A stretch of 64,000 nt of DNA from Eubacterium sp. (GTDB lineage Bacteria; Bacillota; Clostridia; Lachnospirales; Lachnospiraceae). The stretch spans positions 1 through 64,000 of the forward strand of contig JAFZRN010000038.1 of NCBI GenBank assembly GCA_017619835.1, written 5' to 3'. Each line of letters begins with the position of its first letter. Positions within the stretch are counted from its first letter, which is position 1. The notes under the pieces were generated by a model. It made no database searches, was not told the origin of the DNA, and saw only the letters and a list, made by a program, of their open reading frames with translations. This document shows, in pieces, positions 4,953 through 57,445 of the stretch. Made by a program: the position numbers and the translations under genes.

Positions 4953-6782
4953 ATGATAAGAGAAAACATCAGAAATGTTGCAATCATTGCCCACGTAGAC
5001 CACGGCAAGACAACCCTTGTAGACGGGCTTCTTAAACAGAGCGGAGTCTTCAGGGAGAATCAGGACGTTGCCGAAAGAGTTATGGATTCAAATGATATCG
5101 AGCGTGAGAGAGGTATAACGATCCTTTCCAAGAATACGGCAGTAATGTATAACGATATCAAGATCAATATCATCGATACTCCGGGACATGCCGATTTCGG
5201 TGGCGAGGTTGAACGTGTCCTTAAGATGGTGGATGGAGTTATACTCGTTGTCGATGCATTTGAAGGCCCGATGCCTCAGACAAGATTCGTTCTTCAGAAG
5301 GCACTTCAGCTGGATCTTGCTGTTATCGTCTGTGTTAATAAGATAGACAGACCCGATGCAAGACCCGAAGCTGTCGAAGAAGAAGTACTTGAGCTTCTCA
5401 TGGATCTGGATGCAAATGATAAGCAGCTCGACTGTCCTTTTGTATATGCATCAGCAAGAGACGGAGTAGCATCATATACACCCGATGAGCAGGGAACTGA
5501 CATGAAGCCGCTTTTCGAGACTATCATCAAAGCAATCCCCGCACCGGAAGGAGACGATGAAAGAGGTCTCCAGATGCTTATCAGCACAATAGATTATAAT
5601 GAATATACAGGCCGTATCGGTGTTGGTAAGATTGATAACGGAACAATTAAAGTAAATCAGGAAGCTCTTATCGTAAATCATCATGATCCGGACCGTATGG
5701 AAAAGGTTAAGATCACAAAGCTTTATGAGTATGACGGGCTTTCAAAGGTTGACGTTACAGAAGCAACAGTAGGTTCTATAGTAGCCGTATCCGGTATCGC
5801 AGATCTTAAGATCGGTGATACGATCTGTTCTGTCGATCAGCCCGATGCAATACCTTTCCAGAAGATAACGGAGCCAACCATTTCCATGAATTTCATGGTA
5901 AATGATTCTCCGCTTGCAGGTAAAGAAGGTAAATTCATAACAAGCCGCCAGATAAGAGACAGACTTTATAGAGAGCTTAATACAGATGTTTCACTCAGAG
6001 TTGAAGATACTGAATCTACTGACTGCTTCAAGGTATCAGGAAGAGGAGAGCTACACCTTTCCGTTCTTATCGAGAACATGAGACGTGAGGGCTATGAATT
6101 TGCGGTAAGTAAAGCAGAAGTTATCTATAAAGAAGATGAAAGAGGAAAGAGACTTGAGCCATATGAGATTGCCATCGTGGACGTTCCCGATGAATTCTCC
6201 GGTACTGTCATCAATATGATGAGCATCCGTAAGGGAGAACTTTCCGGTATGGCACCTACCAATGGTGGGGTTACAAGACTTGAATTCAGGATACCTTCAA
6301 GAGGCCTTATAGGCTTCAGAGGAGAGTTCCTTACAGCTACAAAGGGTAACGGAGTCATTAATACCATATTCGACGGATATGACCCTTATAAAGGCGATAT
6401 GAGCTACCGCTCCAACGGAAGCCTTATAGCATTCGAAGCAGGAACATCCGTAACATACGGCCTTTTCAACGCACAGGAAAGAGGAACCCTCTTCATCGGC
6501 CCCGGCGTTCAGGTATACGGCGGAATGGTTGTCGGAGAAACAGGCCGTTCTGAAGACATCGAAGTAAATGTATGTAAGACAAAGCATCTTACCAATACAC
6601 GTTCCTCAGGAGCAGACGAAGCACTTAAACTTGTTCCACCTAAGCAGCTTTCACTCGAGCAGTCACTCGACTTCTTAGAGACAGACGAGCTGTTGGAGAT
6701 AACTCCGGAGAACTTAAGAATACGTAAGAAGATACTTGATTCACGACTCAGGATGAGAGAAAACAGAAGAAACAATTTATAA
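4953..6782 (+). CDS. typA: Ribosome-associated translational GTPase TypA/BipA
   Basis: EF-G-like GTPase that binds the ribosome and supports 50S assembly and stress adaptation. The 609-residue protein has G1 [10 protein letters not shown]2 RGITI, G3 [10 protein letters not shown] and G4 NKIDRPDA, then the beta-barrel and EF-G III/V-like domains and the BipA-specific C-terminal part ([26 protein letters not shown]). AGGAGA (4942-4947) sits five bases before ATG 4953, which is preferred to an upstream ATG that overlaps the end of the preceding gene. It stops just before the promoter and folded leader of pncB. Confidence 0.96.
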
Positions 6783-6993: not shown

Positions 6994-8436
6994 ATGAGAA
7001 ATCTGACTATGCTTATGGACTTCTATGAATTAACCATGGCAAACGGTTATTTTGTGACAGGCAACAAGGACAAGGTTGCCGTATTCGATATGTTCTACAG
7101 AACCAATCCGGACGGTGGCGGCTTCGTTGTAAGCGCCGGTCTCGAGATGCTTATCGATTACGTCAAGAATCTTAAATTCACTGATGACGATATCGAATAC
7201 TTAAGAGGACGCGAGATGTTCGACGAAGGCTTCCTTGATTACCTTAAGAACTTCAAGTTCACCGGTACAATTGAGGCTATTCCCGAAGGAACGATCGTAT
7301 ATCCCAATATTCCCATAGTTACAGTGACCGCTCCCATAATCGAAGCTCAGCTCCTTGAGACCATGCTTCTCATATGTATCAACTTCCAGTCTCTTATTGC
7401 TACAAAGGCTAACAGGATTTCGAGAGCAGCTGGAGATGCCATCGTAATGGAATTCGGTGCAAGACGTGCACAGGGTCCGGATGCTGCCGTATGGGGTACC
7501 AGAGCATGCTATATCGGCGGTGTAGGTACAACAGCTACAGTTATGGCAGATCAGCAGTTCGGTGTTAAAGCAGTCGGTACAATGGCTCACAGCTGGGTTG
7601 AATTCTTCCCTTCGGAATATGAATCATTTAAGGCCTATTCAGAAGTTTATCCCGATAACAGCGTACTTCTCATAGATACATATGATATCCTGGAAAGCGG
7701 ACTTCCAAATGCTATCAAGGTAGCTCATGAAGTTCTCGAACCGATGGGCAAACGCCTTAAGGGTGTCAGGATAGACAGCGGAGACCTTGCTTACTTCTCA
7801 AAGAAGATAAGAAGAAGACTTGATGAAGAAGGTCTTGAGGATTGCCAGATTGTTGTTTCCAACAGCGTTGACGAATATCTTATCGAGTCACTTAATAAAC
7901 AGGGTGCAAAGATCAATTCCTACGGTGTAGGTGAAAGAATGATCACTTCCAAGTCAGATCCCGTATTCGGCGGAGTATATAAGCTTGTAGCCGTTAAGGA
8001 AGGCGATGAGTTCATCCCTAAGATTAAGATTTCGGAAAATATCGAGAAGATCACAAATCCCGGAAAGAAAAAGGTTTATCGTATCTACAGTCAGAAGACC
8101 GGATTTGCCATTGCAGACCTTCTCACGCTTGAAAATGAGACACCTGACTTCAGCGATTCCTATACATTTATCGATCCTCAGATGCCATGGAAGAATATGA
8201 AGTTCAGAAATGTCGATGCAAAACCGCTTCAGAAAGTCATTTTCAAGGACGGTGAGTATGTATATGATCAGCCAAGCCTTAAAGAGATCCAGGATTTCGT
8301 AAAGAAACAGCTTACTGATGAGATATGGGAAGAGGAACAGAGATTCTATAATCCTCATATCCATTATCTGGATCTTTCAGTAGATCTTTATGAGACAAAG
8401 AAGAACCTGCTTTCGGGTATTGAGTTCATAGATTAA
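6994..8436 (+). CDS. pncB: Nicotinate phosphoribosyltransferase
   Basis: Salvages nicotinate for NAD by making nicotinate mononucleotide from PRPP with ATP hydrolysis. The 480-residue length fits the Gram-positive type. Motifs include the N-terminal LTMLMDFYELTMANGY, the substrate loop FGARRAQGPDAA, the phosphorylated His199 in GTMAHSWVEFF and the phosphate-binding VRIDSGDLA near residue 258. AAAGGGG (6981-6987) is a good ribosome binding site. The folded RNA upstream suggests control at the leader; with nadE at 50.8 kb the window covers salvage entry and last step of NAD synthesis. Confidence 0.95.
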   Translation: MRNLTMLMDFYELTMANGYFVTGNKDKVAVFDMFYRTNPDGGGFVVSAGLEMLIDYVKNLKFTDDDIEYLRGREMFDEGFLDYLKNFKFTGTIEAIPEGTIVYPNIPIVTVTAPIIEAQLLETMLLICINFQSLIATKANRISRAAGDAIVMEFGARRAQGPDAAVWGTRACYIGGVGTTATVMADQQFGVKAVGTMAHSWVEFFPSEYESFKAYSEVYPDNSVLLIDTYDILESGLPNAIKVAHEVLEPMGKRLKGVRIDSGDLAYFSKKIRRRLDEEGLEDCQIVVSNSVDEYLIESLNKQGAKINSYGVGERMITSKSDPVFGGVYKLVAVKEGDEFIPKIKISENIEKITNPGKKKVYRIYSQKTGFAIADLLTLENETPDFSDSYTFIDPQMPWKNMKFRNVDAKPLQKVIFKDGEYVYDQPSLKEIQDFVKKQLTDEIWEEEQRFYNPHIHYLDLSVDLYETKKNLLSGIEFID

Positions 8437-8999: not shown

Positions 9000-10164
9000 G
9001 AGATTTTTAGCACTTACTCTTACTTCGGCTATCGTGCTTACGGCATTTTCGGGCTGTGGCAAGAAAGAGGAGGAAGAGCCGACATCCGAGGCAACCAGTT
9101 ATTCAATAACTCTTAATGATAACTCCATGCTTGATGATTCGGACGAAGTCCTCATGACAAGAGACGGAAAGGTTATGAGTGACCTTACCGGTGAATGGAT
9201 CGATCAGGAGCTTGCAAAAGAGAGACCTATGACTGTCATGGTCAATAACATCATCGATGCAATGCCTCAGTCAGGTGTTGAAAGTGCTGCAATTATATAT
9301 GAGATGCTTGAAGAGGGCGGTATCACACGTCTTATGGCTATTTATGAGCCGGATTATACAGGCGTTGAGAAGATCGGACCTATCAGAAGTGCAAGACATT
9401 ATTATGATCGTAAAGCACTTGAGTATGATGCAGTATTCGTACACTGGGGACAGTCAATCTATGCACAGCATGAGTTTGATACATTAAAGCCGCTTGATCA
9501 GGTTGACCTTAACGGTAAGGACGGAGCTTACGGCTTCAGAGCTTCTGACAGAGTTGCACCTCATAATGCTTATTCATCAGGTGATAAGATACTTCAGGCT
9601 ATTAAGTCTGATGAATTTGATACAAATAAATCATCAAGCTATAAGAAGATGTTCAGCTTCAATGTTTCCGAGAAAGAACTTGAAGACGGAAATGCTGCTA
9701 ATAAGATCACAACAGCTTACAGCGAGGGAAGAAAACCCTGGTTCGAATATGATTCAGAGAACAAGGTTTATAAGAGATTCCAGTATGGTGAGCCTCAGAT
9801 AGATGCCGAGACAGGTAATCAGCTTGCATTTAAGAACGTTATCATTCAGTATGCTAAGCATATACCTATCAAGGGCGATACAGTTGGATGTATCGATATC
9901 GAGTACAGCGGCAAGGGCGAAGGCTTATATGCTACTGACGGAAAGATAATCCCTATCAAGTGGTCAAAGAAGGGTAAGAAGAAATTCGTTGATTACAGTA
10001 TTACAGACGGACTTCTTGATGATACAAAGAGAAAGGGTAATCCTTCAGATTATGGTGTAACCCAGTTTACTACAATGGATGGCAAGCCTCTTAAGCTTAA
10101 CCCGGGAAAAACATGGGTTACAGTATTCCCTGACGATAATAAAGAAGGAATCATCGTAGAATAG
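8992..10164 (+). CDS. YerB-like lipoprotein, DUF3048 family
   Basis: Secreted lipoprotein of 390 residues with a lipobox FSGC at residues 19-22 after a hydrophobic signal segment. The body matches the DUF3048/YerB family: the ERPMTVMVNN start, GGITRLMAIYEPDY, and VEKIGPIRSARHYYDRKA followed by FVHWGQS. A second domain follows from about residue 230. The biochemical role of the family is not established. It overlaps ybeY by eight bases and is followed after one base by a flavoprotein gene, so it lies in the same transcription unit. Confidence 0.85.
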   Translation: MNKRFLALTLTSAIVLTAFSGCGKKEEEEPTSEATSYSITLNDNSMLDDSDEVLMTRDGKVMSDLTGEWIDQELAKERPMTVMVNNIIDAMPQSGVESAAIIYEMLEEGGITRLMAIYEPDYTGVEKIGPIRSARHYYDRKALEYDAVFVHWGQSIYAQHEFDTLKPLDQVDLNGKDGAYGFRASDRVAPHNAYSSGDKILQAIKSDEFDTNKSSSYKKMFSFNVSEKELEDGNAANKITTAYSEGRKPWFEYDSENKVYKRFQYGEPQIDAETGNQLAFKNVIIQYAKHIPIKGDTVGCIDIEYSGKGEGLYATDGKIIPIKWSKKGKKKFVDYSITDGLLDDTKRKGNPSDYGVTQFTTMDGKPLKLNPGKTWVTVFPDDNKEGIIVE

Positions 10165-11416: not shown

Positions 11417-13146
11417 TAATAATCAGGGATACAAGACAAAGAGTAGGGTATAAGGATCAGGATATCAGGGATACAATAAAAAAGTTCCTTAAGCTTCATG
11501 ATCTTGATAAAGAGATCAAAAGTTATAAGATCCTGAAGGAATCACTCGACTCCAGACGACATGATGATATACATTTTACGGTCACTATCGGTGTTTTTGC
11601 CGAAAATGAGTCTAAAATCCTCAAATTGGTTAACAATAACAAAGTTATGTTAACTAAAGAGAAGAAATATGTATTTCCGCACATATTAAATACCGAATTA
11701 AGGGAATTTCTTGATATAGATCAAAGCTTCCGACCGGTTATAATAGGTTCGGGCCCTGCAGGTTATCATGCTGCAGTAAAGCTGAGTTATGCAGGCTTTA
11801 AACCTATCGTTCTCGAAAGAGGAAAAGCAGTAGAAGATAGAGCAGAGGATGTTGAAAGACTCTGGGAAGAAGGAAAGCTTGAGCCGGATTCAAATATCTG
11901 TTTTGGTGAAGGCGGAGCCGGCACATTTTCGGACGGAAAACTGAATACCGGAAATAAGGATAAAGCAGGATACTTTAAGGAAGTGCTTGATACCTTTGCA
12001 AAGTTCGGTATGGATGAAGCTAATCTTTATCGTTCCAAGCCTCATATAGGAACCGATGAATTAAGACAGATCCTCATTAATATGAGACATGAGATTGAGA
12101 GGCTCGGGGGAGAAGTCAGATTTTCCAATAAGCTTATTGGGATCGATCTAGCTACTGACTTCGGTGTATATGGATATGAAACTGAGCTTCCTGTATATGA
12201 GCTAACTGTAGAAGGGCCTGAGGGAAAGTATAAGATAATTACTCATTCAGTCATACTTGCTGTTGGTCACAGCGCAAGAGATACATTTAAAATGCTCTAT
12301 GATATGGGCTTTGAGATGGAAAAGAAGCCATTTGCGATGGGCGTCAGGGTAGAACATAAGGCTGATACGATAAATAAGGCAATGTATGGTGAAGACTATC
12401 GTAAAAAGTATGGAGATAAACTCCCTGCAGCTGATTATAAGCTGACTTATCATACTAAGGACGATGAAAGAAGCGTATTTTCATTCTGCATGTGTCCGGG
12501 CGGTTATGTTGTTAATTCTTCCACCGAGGAAGGCTCAGTATGTATCAACGGAATGAGCTACAGCGGTCGTGATGGTGATAATTCAAATTCTGCCATTGTT
12601 GTAAATGTCACCCCGGACGATTATAAGGATTATAAGTTTAATGATTCCGAAGTCCTGGGAGGAATTGCTTTTCAAAGAGAGCTCGAAAAAGCGGCTTATA
12701 CTGCAGGAAACGGCAGTATTCCCGTTACATTATATAAAGATATGACTGAAGGAAAACCTTCTTCTGAGCTTGGAAATATCAAGCCCGAGATAAAGGGTTC
12801 ATATTGTCTTACATCCATTAAGGAAGTTCTTCCGGACTTTATATATGATTCGATACTAGAAGCTATGCCTGAATTCGGACGCAGGATTAAGGGCTATGAC
12901 GACCCTGATACGGTCATTTCGGCCGTGGAAGCCCGAACAAGTTCTCCTGTTAAGGTTGTGAGGGACGAACGCCTTATGGCGCCGGAATATCCCGGAATTT
13001 TTCCCGCGGGTGAAGGAGCCGGTTATGCAGGCGGTATCACGTCAGCTGCCGCAGATGGAATTAAGGCGGCAGAAGCTGTCAGTGAATTTCTGATCGAAGA
13101 AATCATTTCCGGCTATAAAGATTATGAAATTTCAAAATATACATAG
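11413..13146 (+). CDS. FAD-dependent dehydrogenase of the COG2509 type
   Basis: A 577-residue flavoprotein common in Clostridia and of unknown substrate. Residues 1-95 form a small alpha/beta domain, then comes the FAD site GSGPAGYHAAVKLSYAG and the conserved block FGEGGAGTFSDGKLNTGNKD. The C-terminal flavin contact is FPAGEGAGYAGGITSAAADG. It overlaps the preceding flavoprotein gene by four bases, so the two are translationally coupled and may act in the same redox process, which is inference. Confidence 0.85.
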   Translation: MIIIRDTRQRVGYKDQDIRDTIKKFLKLHDLDKEIKSYKILKESLDSRRHDDIHFTVTIGVFAENESKILKLVNNNKVMLTKEKKYVFPHILNTELREFLDIDQSFRPVIIGSGPAGYHAAVKLSYAGFKPIVLERGKAVEDRAEDVERLWEEGKLEPDSNICFGEGGAGTFSDGKLNTGNKDKAGYFKEVLDTFAKFGMDEANLYRSKPHIGTDELRQILINMRHEIERLGGEVRFSNKLIGIDLATDFGVYGYETELPVYELTVEGPEGKYKIITHSVILAVGHSARDTFKMLYDMGFEMEKKPFAMGVRVEHKADTINKAMYGEDYRKKYGDKLPAADYKLTYHTKDDERSVFSFCMCPGGYVVNSSTEEGSVCINGMSYSGRDGDNSNSAIVVNVTPDDYKDYKFNDSEVLGGIAFQRELEKAAYTAGNGSIPVTLYKDMTEGKPSSELGNIKPEIKGSYCLTSIKEVLPDFIYDSILEAMPEFGRRIKGYDDPDTVISAVEARTSSPVKVVRDERLMAPEYPGIFPAGEGAGYAGGITSAAADGIKAAEAVSEFLIEEIISGYKDYEISKYT

Positions 13147-18289: not shown

Positions 18290-18299
18290 ATCTGCTTAA

Positions 18300-25942: not shown

Positions 25943-25963
25943 TTTCTTTGTCCTTATCAAAAT

Positions 25964-43398: not shown

Positions 43399-44454
43399 CT
43401 ATATAACTCCTTTCTTTTCAAGTTCCTTACGGATAGTTTGTAGGATCTCATCATCAGATAATGTTGATTTATCGAGCCAGATGACGTCTTTTTCACGGCG
43501 GAACCATGTGAGTTGGCGCTTTGCAAAATGGCGTGTATTGAGCTTGATCTTTTCGAAGGCGTTGTCTAATAAAGATTCACTAGTTTCAGATGAATCGCTT
43601 TGGGATTCAGCCGAAAATGCTTCCAGTAGCTCTTTATATCCGATAGCCTGCATGGAAGTAAGGTCTCTGGTATAGCCTTTTTCCATTAAGCCTTTAACTT
43701 CTTCAACAAGTCCTGCTTCTTTCATGATATCAACTCTTTTATTGATCCTGTCATACAGGACTTCTCTATCCATCGTAAGAACGAAGTAAGCGCTGTTATA
43801 AGCGGACTCTTTCTGGCGTTGTTCCTTATTATGTTCGGAAATGGGTTTGTTATAAATGTGATAATATTCAAGAGCTCTGATCACACGGCGGATATTATTT
43901 TTATGAATAGCCTCAGCGGATGTGGGGTCAATCTCTTTTAACTTATCGTAGAGCTTGTCGGGGCCACCTTCTTCGTTCGCTATAGCTTCGAGTTTTTCGC
44001 GATAATTGTCTAATATATTAGACGAGTCTATATTTTTATCTGATAATTCGGAAGATTTCATGACTTTGTCTAATATGTTAGACGAGTCTGTAAAATCTAT
44101 ATCATACAGAAGCGCCTGGATATAGAATCCGGTACCGCCTACTATGATCGGGATTCGGCCTCTTTCTAATATTTCATCCACCTTTTCCTTGGCAAGGCGC
44201 TGAAAAACAGTGACATCAAAAGGTTCATCGGGATCAAGCACATCAATCAGATGATGTGGAATTCCCTGCATTTCTTCTGGTGTCACTTTCGCACTTCCGA
44301 CATCCATACCTCGATAGACCTGAGCCGAATCGGCTGAAATAATCTCGCCATTTATCATCTTGGCAAGTCCGATCGATAGGTCGGTCTTTCCGACAGCAGT
44401 CGGCCCGGTAAGGATCACAAGAGGTTTTTTAAGTTGTGAAACACTTTCATTCAT
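43399..44454 (-). CDS. miaA: tRNA dimethylallyltransferase with two in-frame palindrome insertions
   Basis: Adds a dimethylallyl group to A37 of tRNAs reading UNN codons; MiaB then methylthiolates it. The 351-residue protein has the P-loop ILTGPTAVGKTDLS, SADSAQVYRGMDVGSAK, GGTGFYIQALLYD and RVIRALEYY. Between the usual DIDFT and NYREKLEAIA there is an extra segment of about 27 residues that begins and ends with SSNILD (residues 124-129 and 144-149), each encoded by a 16-bp palindrome. Both lie in a surface-exposed insertion region, so the enzyme is probably active. It stands ten bases after mutL. Confidence 0.95.
   Translation of the reverse strand: MNESVSQLKKPLVILTGPTAVGKTDLSIGLAKMINGEIISADSAQVYRGMDVGSAKVTPEEMQGIPHHLIDVLDPDEPFDVTVFQRLAKEKVDEILERGRIPIIVGGTGFYIQALLYDIDFTDSSNILDKVMKSSELSDKNIDSSNILDNYREKLEAIANEEGGPDKLYDKLKEIDPTSAEAIHKNNIRRVIRALEYYHIYNKPISEHNKEQRQKESAYNSAYFVLTMDREVLYDRINKRVDIMKEAGLVEEVKGLMEKGYTRDLTSMQAIGYKELLEAFSAESQSDSSETSESLLDNAFEKIKLNTRHFAKRQLTWFRREKDVIWLDKSTLSDDEILQTIRKELEKKGVI
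44008..44083. repeat. Pair of in-frame 16-bp palindromes in miaA
   Basis: GTCTAATATATTAGAC (44008-44023, perfect palindrome) and GTCTAATATGTTAGAC (44068-44083) stand 60 bases apart in direct orientation, both followed by GAGTCT. On the coding strand each reads SSNILD. Further copies are in mutL and rsmF. Confidence 0.9.
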
Positions 44455-44463
44455 TAAATATAG

Positions 44464-46446
44464 TTACTCTACGATTCGTTTGAATTTCTTATCAAGTTCT
44501 GTTTTAGTCATCTTGATTATCGTCGGACGACCGTGCGGGCAAGTATAAGGATTATCAAGGCTCATGAGCCTATCCATAAGTGTCTGGACTTCTTCAAACG
44601 TAATCTTCTGATTACCTTTAACAGCTGCCTTACAGCCCATAGTCGCAAGCTTTCTCACAAATATATCTTCAGTGAGGTCTTCCAAATCATTTGTAATATA
44701 ATCGGCAAGCTCCATAAAAACATCTCTCGTACCAAGGCCGAGAAGATTTGCGGGTACCGCGGAGACTTTAATCTCATTTCCACCGAAATCCTCGATCTCG
44801 AAGCCGAACTTCTGCATGTAATCGGTCTTGGACAGGACGGCCTCTTTTTCACGACTCGTCATAGTGAAGATTTCAGGCGGGAAAATGTTTTGGCTATGTA
44901 TCTTCCTTTCCTTAAACTCCTTCAGGAAAGTCTCGTAATTCACCTTTTCGTGGGCAGCGTGCTGGTCCATCAGATAAAGGCAGTCCTCATATTCGGTGAT
45001 CCAGTATGTGTCGAAAGCAAGGCCGATAATTCGATGCTTTGGACGAGCCTCTTCGGAAAGATAACGGGTTTCAGTGAGTTCTTCCTGCTTGAATTCGAAC
45101 TTTGGTGAAGCCGTACTTTCTGAAGTGTTTTCTATCGGATTATCTGTATTGGTGTTTGATACACTTTCTTCCACGCTGCGACCAAGCTTCTCACGGTATT
45201 CCTTGGGAAGAAGACTCTCAAGGATTGAGAAACTGTTTTCCGAAGTGGATGATTTAGGTCTGTCTAATATGTTAGACGGATTTTTATGGTCAATCTTGTC
45301 TAATGTATTAGACGAATATCTGTTCTGCTCTTCCACTACCATATCCGGTTGAGGAATTTTGTTAGAAGCTACAGAACTCAGCTTTGTCTCCGGAACAGGC
45401 TGCTTAACCGGCTTCGGAACAGTATAATCAGATGCTGTATCAGGAATGAATTCTTTATTCTCGAGAGCATTTTTCACTGCGTGAAATACTCCGCTGAAGA
45501 GTTCTTTCTCATTATCAAATCTGAATTCACGCTTGGCCGGATGCACATTTACATCCACCATATAAGTCGGAACCTCGATGAATAGAGCCGTATAAGGGAA
45601 ACGGTGCTGCATTATGTGAGTCTTATATGCTTCTTCAATCGCACGGTTAACAACTGCACTCTTTATATAACGTTTGTTTACGAAATAATTTTCAAAACTG
45701 CGGTTACCTTTAGAGATAAATGGCTTTCCGACAAAACCGGTCAGCTTTATCTCGCCATCCTCAAAGGTATGGGTATAATCGACCTCGAGAAGTCCGCGGG
45801 TGATGTCCTTTCCGAAAAGGGAATAAACAGTCTCCTTCAGACGGCCGTCGCCCTGAGTGTCTACAATAGTCTTGCCACCTGAGATCAGCTTTATAGCTAC
45901 ACCCGGATTAGCTAGAGCAATGTGGACTATGAGATCATTTATATAAGAACCCTCAGTCATATTGGACTTGAGGAACTTCTTACGCGCAGGGGTATTGAAA
46001 AAAAGATTGCGGCTTATGATGGTCGTACCGTCGGGAGCGCCTATTTCCTTGAATTCCAGCTCCTTGCCGGCTTCGATGACATATCTGATACCTGTCAGAG
46101 CATCATGCGTTTTCGTAACCATTTCCACTTCACTTACTGCTGCTATCGTGGAGAGAGCCTCGCCTCTGAAGCCGAGGGACGTGATGTTCATGAGGTCGTC
46201 GATGGTATCGAGCTTGCTGGTCGCGTGGCTGTAATAAGCTTTACGTACATCGTCTGCATCGATTCCGGAGCCGTTATCGGTCACACGGATCATGCTGGTT
46301 CCGCCGTCGGTAATCTCTATGGTCACACGTGTTGCACCGGCGTCGATTGAGTTCTCAACGAGCTCCTTAACTACGGAAGCCGGGCGCTCGATAACCTCAC
46401 CCGCTGCTATCTTATCAATTGTATGTTGGTCTAATACTCTAATCAT
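44464..46446 (-). CDS. mutL: DNA mismatch repair protein MutL
   Basis: GHKL ATPase and endonuclease that links MutS mismatch recognition to strand removal. In 660 residues the N-terminal ATPase motifs are IAAGEVIERPASVVKELVENS, DNGSGI and TSLGFRGEALSTI. The C-terminal endonuclease domain has DQHAAHEKVNYE and a zinc-site region (ACPHGRP-type: YTCPHGRPT). The central linker (about 330-470) carries two palindrome-derived peptides, SSNTLD (near 378-383) and PSNILD (near 390-395). It is preceded by mutS and followed by miaA. Confidence 0.96.
   Translation of the reverse strand: MIRVLDQHTIDKIAAGEVIERPASVVKELVENSIDAGATRVTIEITDGGTSMIRVTDNGSGIDADDVRKAYYSHATSKLDTIDDLMNITSLGFRGEALSTIAAVSEVEMVTKTHDALTGIRYVIEAGKELEFKEIGAPDGTTIISRNLFFNTPARKKFLKSNMTEGSYINDLIVHIALANPGVAIKLISGGKTIVDTQGDGRLKETVYSLFGKDITRGLLEVDYTHTFEDGEIKLTGFVGKPFISKGNRSFENYFVNKRYIKSAVVNRAIEEAYKTHIMQHRFPYTALFIEVPTYMVDVNVHPAKREFRFDNEKELFSGVFHAVKNALENKEFIPDTASDYTVPKPVKQPVPETKLSSVASNKIPQPDMVVEEQNRYSSNTLDKIDHKNPSNILDRPKSSTSENSFSILESLLPKEYREKLGRSVEESVSNTNTDNPIENTSESTASPKFEFKQEELTETRYLSEEARPKHRIIGLAFDTYWITEYEDCLYLMDQHAAHEKVNYETFLKEFKERKIHSQNIFPPEIFTMTSREKEAVLSKTDYMQKFGFEIEDFGGNEIKVSAVPANLLGLGTRDVFMELADYITNDLEDLTEDIFVRKLATMGCKAAVKGNQKITFEEVQTLMDRLMSLDNPYTCPHGRPTIIKMTKTELDKKFKRIVE
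45262..45313. repeat. Pair of in-frame 16-bp palindromes in the mutL linker
   Basis: GTCTAATATGTTAGAC (45262-45277) and GTCTAATGTATTAGAC (45298-45313) match the miaA and rsmF elements with one or two central changes. Both are read in the same frame as the miaA copies and lie in the flexible MutL linker. Confidence 0.85.
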
Positions 46447-54373: not shown

Positions 54374-55024
54374 TTAAAATCCTAAACTAAACAATGTCTC
54401 GCGGATGTATTCGTCGGATGTAAGGGCTGCCTCGTCAGCTTCGCGGATGCGGGCGAGCTCTTTCTTAAATGTATTTATGTTCTCGGTTACAAAGATTCGG
54501 CAGGATATTTCGGGATCGGAATTCAGCATCCCCATAAAACTCTTAACCCTCTCACGCTTCTTCGCGTCCTTCTCATCGGGTGTAAACGCGATAACATTAT
54601 TATTATAAACACAGACTGCAGGCAGGAAAACCACGCCGTCTTCGTCAGTGATCGTAAGATCATAATCAATCCTGCGCCCGGTCTCAGCACCGATCGCCTC
54701 GACCTTCTCCTGCAAATCCTTATCCAGCGGCTTACATTTAATAGTCATAAAAAGATCAATGAGATTCCGCGCAAACGGGATCGACATTACACAGGCAATG
54801 ATCACGAACCAGGTCTTCCTCGTCTTAAAAACAAGCACGCTGATAAGAACGTCCGCCACGATCACGGCAAGAAGCAGGAGCACCATCACAAGCCTGATGA
54901 TCATCCTCTTTTTGATCCGCCCGTACGTCCCCTTCTCGGGTTCGCCGATATGCGAAAGAAAGCTGTTATCCCAGCTTCTCTCTCTTTTTATAGCTTTATA
55001 AGTTGAATTATCTATCTTACTCAC
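54374..55024 (-). CDS. Membrane protein of unknown function
   Basis: About 216 residues with two transmembrane helices (roughly residues 42-65 and 70-90) between a basic N-terminal part and a C-terminal soluble domain of about 120 residues (KPLDKDLQEKVEAIGAETGRR, FLPAVCVYNNNVIAFTP). I do not recognise the family. The GTG at 55024 overlaps the rsmF stop (GTGA) and has GGAG nine bases upstream; ATG 55039 in the same frame is the alternative. Coupled to rsmF on the upstream side, five bases from the pseudouridine synthase gene downstream. Confidence 0.65.
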   Translation of the reverse strand: MSKIDNSTYKAIKRERSWDNSFLSHIGEPEKGTYGRIKKRMIIRLVMVLLLLAVIVADVLISVLVFKTRKTWFVIIACVMSIPFARNLIDLFMTIKCKPLDKDLQEKVEAIGAETGRRIDYDLTITDEDGVVFLPAVCVYNNNVIAFTPDEKDAKKRERVKSFMGMLNSDPEISCRIFVTENINTFKKELARIREADEAALTSDEYIRETLFSLGF

Positions 55025-56517
55025 GAAGTCATTCTCCATCCCGGAAGGTATTTGTTCTTGATCGTGCCGCCCGTGTTCTTCGCGAATCCCAGCGGAAATC
55101 CTGCGACACAAACGAGCACCCATCCATTCTTTAATTCATTTTTGTCAAATGTCGTCGCCAGCTCTAAAGCATCAACATCCAGTGTCTCGCCCCTAAGGTA
55201 TCGGTAGACGTTATTTGAGTCAGCGCTCAGATCTAGTACATTGTCAAAATTATCAGCTTTAAGCAGCATTGCAAGGCTCTGGCTCGGCTCAAAGCGGTTC
55301 TTCTTTAATTCACCTATATAGATTCCGGTCCTCATCGTACGAAGTCCCTTTATATCAGGCACTCCATCGGGAACCAGGAAAAGTCTGTCTTTGATAAGTT
55401 CAAGGTTAGAACGTTTCAAAAGATTCTTTACAGAAGCCGAATCATTTCCACCTGAAATAATATGCTTTAGAAACTCCTCAGCATCATCCGGCAGCTTCCC
55501 AATTGACTTAATCTTATAATCCGAAACGAAACTTCCGCCATTATACATAACATTAGAAGCATCTCCGTCTAATATATTAGACGAACTCTCACCTTCAGCA
55601 ACTTCATCTCCAGTCATCTTCTTAAGCAGTGAAACATAATGCCCCTCACCATGAACCCTATGAGGGAAAAGATGCGCAGTATATTTTATAGTTTCATCAG
55701 CGCCGTCAATCATATATCCCGGAACAAAGCCTTCGCACATATTTATCGGCACAATCTCAAGTGAAGGATCAAGCGAACGAAGATACATCACCTGCTCTTC
55801 ATCTTCCATCGTATCAAAGGTGCAGGTCGAATAAAGTATCATTCCGCCAGGTTTAAGAAGCTTCGGGATCTCATCGAGGATGCTTCTTTGAATTGCGGCG
55901 AACTTCTCATTTCCATTCTGCTCCCATGCCGTAACCATCGAAGAGGACTTACGGAACATTCCTTCGCCGGAACATGGAGCATCGATCAGAATCTTATCGA
56001 AATACTGCCCAAAATGGCTTGCAAGTCTTTCAGGAGTCTCGCAGGTTATGATGACATTTTCGGCACCGAAGGCCTCGACATTTTTCTGAAGCGCCTTAAG
56101 ACGGGACGCACTGATATCATTCGAAACAAGAACGCCCGTACCTTTAAGCTTAGCCGCAAGCTCAGTCGTTTTACCGCCCGGTGCAGCGCAGATATCGAGC
56201 ACTTTATCGCCCGGCTCAATCGGTAAAGTCGCAGCCGGAAGCGTCGCACTAGCCTCCTGTAGATAATAGAGTCCGGCAAAGTAAAAAGGATGCTTCGAGG
56301 GTGAAAATATCGAAGCATCATAATAAAAAGCATTATCTGTCCAGGGCACCGGAGTAAGCTCAAATGGGCAGATTTCGAGAAATTCGGGTACAGAAAGCTT
56401 AAGAGTATTCACTCTGAGGCAATGATTCATAGGTTCGTCAAGCGACGCCTCGTAAAGCGGATACTCCTCGCCGAGAAGGCTCTGCATTTTTCTGATATAG
56501 CTGTCCGGTAATCTCAT
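55021..56517 (-). CDS. rRNA cytosine-C5 methyltransferase (RsmF/NOP2-like)
   Basis: SAM-dependent m5C methyltransferase of 16S rRNA type. The 498 residues include NHCLRVNTLK, SAM motif I VLDICAAPGGKTTELA, and the catalytic cysteines in IDAPCSGEGMFRK and LYSTCTFDTMEDEEQV, with a C-terminal PUA-like RsmF domain. Near residues 312-317 the segment SSSNILDGDASN includes a palindrome-encoded SSNILD like those in miaA and mutL. ATG 56517 is chosen because a longer frame overlaps the upstream TPR gene, whose stop is two bases away. Confidence 0.9.
   Translation of the reverse strand: MRLPDSYIRKMQSLLGEEYPLYEASLDEPMNHCLRVNTLKLSVPEFLEICPFELTPVPWTDNAFYYDASIFSPSKHPFYFAGLYYLQEASATLPAATLPIEPGDKVLDICAAPGGKTTELAAKLKGTGVLVSNDISASRLKALQKNVEAFGAENVIITCETPERLASHFGQYFDKILIDAPCSGEGMFRKSSSMVTAWEQNGNEKFAAIQRSILDEIPKLLKPGGMILYSTCTFDTMEDEEQVMYLRSLDPSLEIVPINMCEGFVPGYMIDGADETIKYTAHLFPHRVHGEGHYVSLLKKMTGDEVAEGESSSNILDGDASNVMYNGGSFVSDYKIKSIGKLPDDAEEFLKHIISGGNDSASVKNLLKRSNLELIKDRLFLVPDGVPDIKGLRTMRTGIYIGELKKNRFEPSQSLAMLLKADNFDNVLDLSADSNNVYRYLRGETLDVDALELATTFDKNELKNGWVLVCVAGFPLGFAKNTGGTIKNKYLPGWRMTS
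55566..55583. repeat. In-frame 18-bp palindrome in the rRNA methyltransferase gene
   Basis: CGTCTAATATATTAGACG is a perfect palindrome. Its inner 16 bases equal the element at 44008-44023 in miaA and are read in the same frame as SSNILD. Confidence 0.9.
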
Positions 56518-56518
56518 T

Positions 56519-57445
56519 TTATTCTTCATCCGATCCATCATTAACAGGCTCTGGGTCCATGTTAATTCTAGAATATAAAAAGTCGTACTCCTTCCGGTAG
56601 GTCTCATTTTCGGGATACTCTTTTATAAGGCGCTCGGCCTTTTCCAGCGCTTCCTCATAATCATAGGCAGCCTCGGAAATGACGATGTCGTTGAACATCA
56701 GCTTATCAATATAAAGCATGTCATTAGTCTGAAGACCTCTGTTTATCATAGCGCGGGCATTTTCATAGTCGCCCTTATCGATATAATAAGATGAAAGCTG
56801 GTACGCAACATAGCTGTTCATTCCATATACATCTGCATATTGGTTAAATGCTTTCAGCATCTTATCTGTTTCACCCTGATACTGGTAACAGATTCCAAGG
56901 AACAGATTGGCTGAACTGTTGCCGTTTTCGAGCTCATTTTCAAGACTCGAAATAGTCGAATCATAGATTGCGCCGCTATGCATCTGATCTAGAGCATTTG
57001 CAAGCTTGAGATATTCCTCGATCTTATCAGTCGAAACGCTGGTCTTATTCTCTGATTTAGTCGAATACTTGAAATATATGTCGTATGCCTTCGAGAACTC
57101 TCCCGTCCTCATATAGCAGGCAGCGAGATACATCTCGGTGTCGGCATCCATCTTCTCGGAAAACCACTGCTCGCGGTCAAATGATTCCTGAAGAAGACTT
57201 ATCGCTTCGTTGTAATTGCCGCTTTTGAAGGCGGCAATTCCCTGTTCACGAAGCTTCTCTTTATCAGAGATTGAATGAACCACAATGTAGGCCGTGCCGA
57301 TTATCACGATAATCGAGAATATGGCACACATCACAGCAAGCTTTATATTTCGGCTCTTACGTGCCTGCCGCTGCTTATCCTTCACCGACTTCACGTCATT
57401 TCCTATTCTATTGTCCTCAATAATCTCTTGTTTCTTCTTTTTCAT
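56519..57445 (-). CDS. Membrane-anchored TPR-repeat protein
   Basis: A 308-residue protein with a basic cytoplasmic start, one transmembrane helix (about residues 33-55) and a series of TPR-like helical hairpins outside (GIAAFKSGNYNEAISLLQES, YLAACYMRTGEFSKAYDIYF, YQLSSYYIDKGDYENARAMI). It may be a scaffold for envelope proteins. The region before its ATG consists of the palindrome at 57459-57471 and lacks a normal ribosome binding site. It is followed two bases later by the methyltransferase. Confidence 0.8.
   Translation of the reverse strand: MKKKKQEIIEDNRIGNDVKSVKDKQRQARKSRNIKLAVMCAIFSIIVIIGTAYIVVHSISDKEKLREQGIAAFKSGNYNEAISLLQESFDREQWFSEKMDADTEMYLAACYMRTGEFSKAYDIYFKYSTKSENKTSVSTDKIEEYLKLANALDQMHSGAIYDSTISSLENELENGNSSANLFLGICYQYQGETDKMLKAFNQYADVYGMNSYVAYQLSSYYIDKGDYENARAMINRGLQTNDMLYIDKLMFNDIVISEAAYDYEEALEKAERLIKEYPENETYRKEYDFLYSRINMDPEPVNDGSDEE

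Follow-up and report, generated by a model that had tools for sequence, protein, structure and literature searches.

The window, by which is meant the whole 64,000-nucleotide stretch of the Eubacterium contig that was analysed, carries the adjacent genes miaA and mutL and, further along, an rsmF-like gene, and a 16-bp palindrome recurs inside all three (Table 1). Two copies, those at 44008 and 55567, have the exact form GTCTAATATATTAGAC; the other three, at 44068, 45262 and 45298, differ from it by one mismatch. This bears out an earlier, preliminary description of two copies in miaA, two in mutL and one in rsmF. Dinucleotide shuffles of the window gave a mean of 0.42 copies at up to three mismatches, and none of the 100 shuffles reached five. 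The mutL copies lie 36 bp apart, start to start, and the miaA copies 60 bp apart, while the rsmF copy is single. On the coding strand a C directly precedes the palindrome in all five cases.

Table 1. Genes of the window that contain the palindrome, and the copies within them
Feature	Position	Strand	Remarks
miaA, tRNA dimethylallyltransferase	43399..44454	-	copies in loop of variable length
Operator-type palindrome in miaA, exact	44008..44023	-	reads SNILD; weight-matrix score 24.6
Operator-type palindrome in miaA, one mismatch	44068..44083	-	reads SNILD
mutL	44464..46446	-	copies in linker between DNA_mis_repair domain (208-328) and MutL_C (474-614)
Operator-type palindrome in mutL, one mismatch	45262..45277	-	reads SNILD after Pro
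Operator-type palindrome in mutL, one mismatch	45298..45313	-	reads SNTLD
rsmF-like rRNA methyltransferase gene	55021..56607	-	copy between methyltransferase domain (127-329) and RsmF_methylt_CI (400-449)
Operator-type palindrome in rsmF, exact	55567..55582	-	reads SNILD

All five copies are read in one common frame, as had been stated; stops in the other two leave no choice. The peptide SSNILD, given at first as the product of every copy, holds in part: SNILD is read in four of the five, but the copy at 45298 has Thr in place of Ile and that at 45262 follows Pro, not Ser. The linkers in which the miaA, mutL and rsmF copies sit tolerate many peptides, and the palindrome always occupies its only open frame. 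Beyond the 16 bp, the miaA pair has eight contiguous flanking bases in common; the other coding copies share at most four, so that copying of longer DNA is not visible outside the miaA pair.

The window also holds a family of five imperfect palindromes of about 40 nt, TTATGTGACAAAC..GTTTGTCACAT (at 18299, 53323, 58696, 62080 and 62113), mostly between open frames, as well as repeats with GGGGTCAGACCCC, GGGGTCTGACCCC or GGGGCCTGACCCC near gene ends (25963, 28405, 32226, 46451, 49202, 53362 and 57443), among which the 45-nt repeat copies at 25963 and 53362 are identical.

Genome counts, relatives and codon use

Across the genome, which comprises 2.75 Mb in 44 contigs, the exact arms GTCTAANNNNTTAGAC occur at eight places, against none for a control read backwards. 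These comprise the five window copies, one copy in comEC on contig C9 and two promoters on contig C22. The preliminary description had proposed counting the 16-mer against chance, and near-perfect copies do exceed the control: at up to one mismatch there were eight against one (five in three genes within 12 kb, two at promoters and one in comEC), and at up to two mismatches 11 against five, so that a clear excess is limited to near-perfect copies. The backwards-read control occurred 30 times in 56 relatives, or 0.54 per genome. At this rate the probability of one copy per genome is 0.41, and that of copies in three genes within 12 kb is about 3e-9, and the set in miaA, mutL and rsmF is therefore not due to chance. 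The comEC copy may be a chance occurrence, as one chance copy per genome is ordinary and the surroundings of this copy align with relatives and show no insert. Codon shuffling produced 0.025 copies per 2.7 Mb on average, a figure resting on one match in 40 simulated genomes, and an alternative chance figure of 2e-13 depends on that single match. ComEC of this genome (L013:3662-6574) also contains several in-frame tandem peptide repeats.

Relatives were drawn from a sample of 40 genus members, the genome itself left out. Of these, 36 yielded MiaA, 39 MutL and 39 RsmF or a related protein; 29 loci per gene, some incomplete, were aligned. Segments of the SNILD type occurred in this genome only among the aligned loci, at places where relatives differ from one another in both length and sequence. 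The further check that had been suggested, whether relatives share the segments at the same sites, thus ended with none of the 29 aligned loci per gene sharing them. The 27 extra residues of MiaA between the DIDFT and NYREKL blocks are present as described, but four relatives (L016, L017, L018 and L031) carry inserts of similar size and unrelated sequence, so the length of this segment is not special by itself. Palindromes of at least 12 bp were tabulated for 87 loci of relatives (29 each for miaA, mutL and rsmF) and inspected by eye, and no comparable repeated element was seen. A weight matrix, derived from 121 sites of the 68 paired-operator loci described below, found two matches scoring above 6 in the same 87 loci, the better (L016:3349, score 10.7) towards the end of a miaA locus, with one match in a shuffle of the 29 miaA loci as control. 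The window copies score 24.6-26.3, and the 121 sites themselves span 18.2-28.8.

What the coding copies keep in common is their DNA and not their peptide, as shown by uncommon codons that recur in every copy and by variation found only in the central four bases. In all six coding copies the arms are perfect and the centre is YRYR, and in each of them Leu is encoded by TTA (9% of Leu codons), Ser by TCT (15%) and Asp by GAC (33%), as counted over 33 frames of the window. The differences within the centre include one nonsynonymous change, Ile to Thr, and the arms are free even of synonymous change. SSNILD as a conserved peptide motif was considered and discarded, since the arm codons are invariant and uncommon, the middle residue varies and the aligned relatives lack the peptide.

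The same palindrome at promoters

Contig C22 of this genome carries promoters of the form TTGACA-N6/7-palindrome, one of them between a divergent pair consisting of an S24-domain HTH gene and a gene for a 63-aa XRE protein, with two further operator promoters before other genes. Two of the window copies match C22 operators letter for letter; the plus-strand 16 letters of the copy at 44068 are those of C22:42259 and C22:47676. Three c-di-GMP-I riboswitches lie within 5.3 kb of C22, downstream of operator promoters (L012:6548-6639, 9991-10083 and 11745-11837), and their neighbours are BspA-type LRR, uncharacterised and SPFH genes. The genome's own blaI-blaR1 genes are fronted by a pair of the GTCGAA variant, as is blaI in G001, G020, G062 and G075, and the broader GTCKAA type, mostly paired, precedes blaI in these five genomes and in G048 and G049. 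In the last two the same palindrome promoter as on C22 stands before a Penicillinase_R (BlaI) gene, with an M56 (BlaR1-type) gene next in line, and in G007 operators of the GTCKAA type adjoin two further BlaR1-type (M56-M23) genes.

Of 61 genus genomes, five match the 63-aa XRE protein strongly, and each of these has a perfect-arm operator at the promoter of the XRE gene; two more (G041 and G058) match weakly, with E about 1e-3. Across 60 genus relatives GTCTAAYRYRTTAGAC was found at nine places and GTCTAANNNNTTAGAC at 11, the latter from a search with the wider motif. Ten of these 11 perfect-arm GTCTAA sites lie outside open frames of at least 60 aa, the eleventh (G062) has promoter spacing and falls where the XRE frame is extended upstream, and none of the 11 in the 60 relatives is within a gene body. 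TTGAC stands at six to seven bases from seven of the 11, and one site (G020:C329:6497) overlaps the end of the XRE gene. The wider motif, GTCKAANNNNTTMGAC, occurs ten times here against three in the control and 48 times in the 60 relatives against 184; it shows no raw-count excess in relatives, and its meaning therefore rests on pairing, promoter spacing and neighbouring genes. Of its 48 sites in relatives, 19 fall in some mechanical open frame of at least 60 aa, mostly short frames across blaI promoters, and the four in frames longer than 500 nt (G002, G010, G013 and G054) include no perfect-arm GTCTAA site. Relative G046 has two operators at its XRE gene, and its only strong BlaI-family match, in a genome 85% complete, is of another type without such an operator. 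The operator behind this XRE gene (L159:8125) and the window copy at 44068 have 24 identical bases, eight of them beyond the operator, possibly by chance because 278 oriented flanks were compared with each of six copies. In a Bacillota MAG (L237, about 7763-7842), too, this operator stands between an S24 gene and a divergent XRE-like gene.

A scan for paired operators in 84,980 species genomes returned 68 loci, and in 63 of them a frame of the BlaI/MecI family, recognised by a profile of five genus proteins iterated once, lies within 400 bp, which places the motif in an autoregulatory position. By title, with a few genus names assigned from recall, 61 loci belong to Clostridia, three are labelled only as Bacillota, two only as bacterium, and two are others (L203, Crocinitomicaceae, and L222, Patescibacteria). 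These two are among the five loci outside the 63, together with L231, which has a BlaI-type frame elsewhere in its stretch, L237, and L256, where the operator is at the very end of the stretch. The gap from TTGACN to the operator is six bases for 58 operators and seven for three, and the promoter pairs are spaced 24-32 bp apart, with one at 45. GTCTAA-YRYR-TTAGAC is thus very probably a repressor operator, judging by its promoter position and neighbouring genes in many genomes, and a protein of the BlaI family is likely to read it. Among the titles listed in literature searches on BlaI operators, none describes a GTCTAA-type operator in Lachnospiraceae. This predicted BlaI-type operator, found across Clostridia with near-fixed promoter spacing, can serve for regulon mapping, and it also stands at an S24/XRE locus with c-di-GMP riboswitches.

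A phage origin of the palindrome was considered and set aside. Matches to GTCTAAYATRTTAGAC were present in 73 stretches of viral contigs, five of which (L313, L272, L305, L338 and L298) have more than one copy. Those of L313 and L272 lie outside open frames of at least 80 aa, one of three in L305 lies inside one, and L338 is apparently L305 reversed. In L298 two exact copies at 6548 and 6590, 42 bp apart, are both in a 112-aa open frame and read SNILDQGK twice. Given these two, the genome studied here may not be alone in having copies inside open frames.

Probable intragenic operators and other explanations

The coding copies are best accounted for, and probably explained, as predicted intragenic operators of a BlaI/MecI-type repressor of Clostridia, whose motif also stands at the divergent S24/XRE locus. 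The preliminary description had offered a binding site tolerated by coding sequence as its alternative, and it is this suggestion that the evidence favours. The peptide would most likely be a by-product of a putative DNA-binding site, rather than a mobile insert or a protein motif. The coding operators of this one genome would then come in pairs in mutL and miaA, as promoter operators do, and singly in rsmF and comEC. Counting against the reading, promoter spacing is missing at the window copies: TTGAC at six to seven bases was absent from both strands at all five, the nearest approach to a -35 element being TTTACA, five bases before the copy at 44068 on the minus strand. The spacings of 36 and 60 bp also fall outside the 24-32 bp of the promoter pairs counted (one at 45 bp), though pairs on C22 stand 34 bp apart.

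If the repressor binds the coding copies in the cell, the bound protein may stand in the way of transcription along mutL-miaA and in rsmF, a roadblock that would be lifted upon inactivation of the repressor. The odds that the coding copies have a regulatory effect are close to even, leaning slightly towards none. It is quite unlikely that an envelope-stress repressor of the BlaR1/BlaI type, or one of the S24 type, has recruited mutL, miaA, rsmF and comEC through operators in their coding sequence; if it had, stress would alter repair, decoding and uptake by lifting roadblocks inside these genes. The in-frame palindrome is a testable case of a putative DNA-binding site shaping a protein, with linker residues set by the needs of a repressor.

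A serious alternative, though one we regard as somewhat unlikely, is that the coding copies are functionless operator-like sequences, formed in permissive linkers or copied there, which have not yet had time to drift. Local duplication would be part of this, as the miaA pair, with its eight shared flanking bases, could be a 60-bp tandem duplication, and the tandem peptide repeats of ComEC point the same way. Drift can create intragenic sites (PMC6397444), and that paper argues that many such sites have arisen in this manner; at the control rate a lone chance copy like that in comEC is unsurprising. Against this stand the short common flanks outside the miaA pair, the improbability of hitting three genes in 12 kb, and the confinement of variation to the centre while the arms stay fixed.

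The intragenic operators could also have another reader, such as the S24-domain protein or the 63-aa XRE protein of C22, because the genome's own blaI operators are of the GTCGAA variant; the coding copies would then belong to that regulon and not to BlaI. Divergent S24 and XRE genes flank the operator here, in G075 and in L237, and the palindrome is present in five of the five genomes of the genus that match the XRE protein strongly, against three of the 56 others (Fisher p 9e-6), or, with the weak matches in G041 and G058 included, in five of seven against three of 54 (p 2e-4); the letter identity of two window copies with C22 operators fits as well. Yet 63 of the 68 loci show the same motif and spacing before BlaI-family genes, the stretches of these 68 loci gave no XRE match and one S24 match (L237, outside the 63), and G020 has the XRE gene and operators with no S24 match found in a genome 72% complete. 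We judge an S24 or XRE reader to be unlikely.

An in-frame insertion of a short mobile palindromic element of the Rickettsia kind is scarcely credible: the coding palindrome is indeed missing from the aligned relatives, but its copies are few and clustered, the same sequence is an ordered promoter element, a bare insertion would break the frame because 16 bp is not a multiple of three, and a target duplication is absent, with no direct repeats of 2, 5 or 8 bp flanking any of the five window copies.

Comparison with known systems

Rickettsia palindromic elements are palindromes read in frame inside several proteins, and a resemblance to them had been proposed for the copies described here. The 16-bp length, the lack of direct repeats and the promoter use in many genomes leave this proposal unsupported: the palindrome is far shorter, is not a multiple of three, has no target duplication and equals a promoter operator. 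As a candidate, a Rickettsia palindromic element or a MITE would call for a frame-preserving length or target duplication and for many dispersed copies, and neither was found.

A PurR site inside purB is an example of a transcriptional roadblock. LacI, PurR, GalR, CcpA and CodY are named as repressors that block RNA polymerase (PMC4132739), and the predicted operators are similar in that a repressor site downstream of a promoter could stop the polymerase. They differ in that several sites lie in neighbouring genes and are known from sequence alone.

The closest counterpart is BlaI_0696 of C. thermocellum, with a GTCTAT half-site in an inverted repeat, two motifs per target promoter, autoregulation, and a regulon that has BlaR1-type genes (PMC8457756). 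Most of its in vitro peaks were in coding DNA, and the paper excluded these coding peaks from the regulons (PMC8457756). The GTCTAA half-site resembles GTCTAT, and the inverted repeat, the two motifs per promoter, the predicted autoregulation, the BlaR1-type genes and the occurrence of sites in coding DNA are likewise shared (PMC8457756). Unlike the C. thermocellum site, the half-sites here are four bases apart rather than the five reported (PMC8457756), and perfect sites cluster in housekeeping genes and serve an S24/XRE locus.
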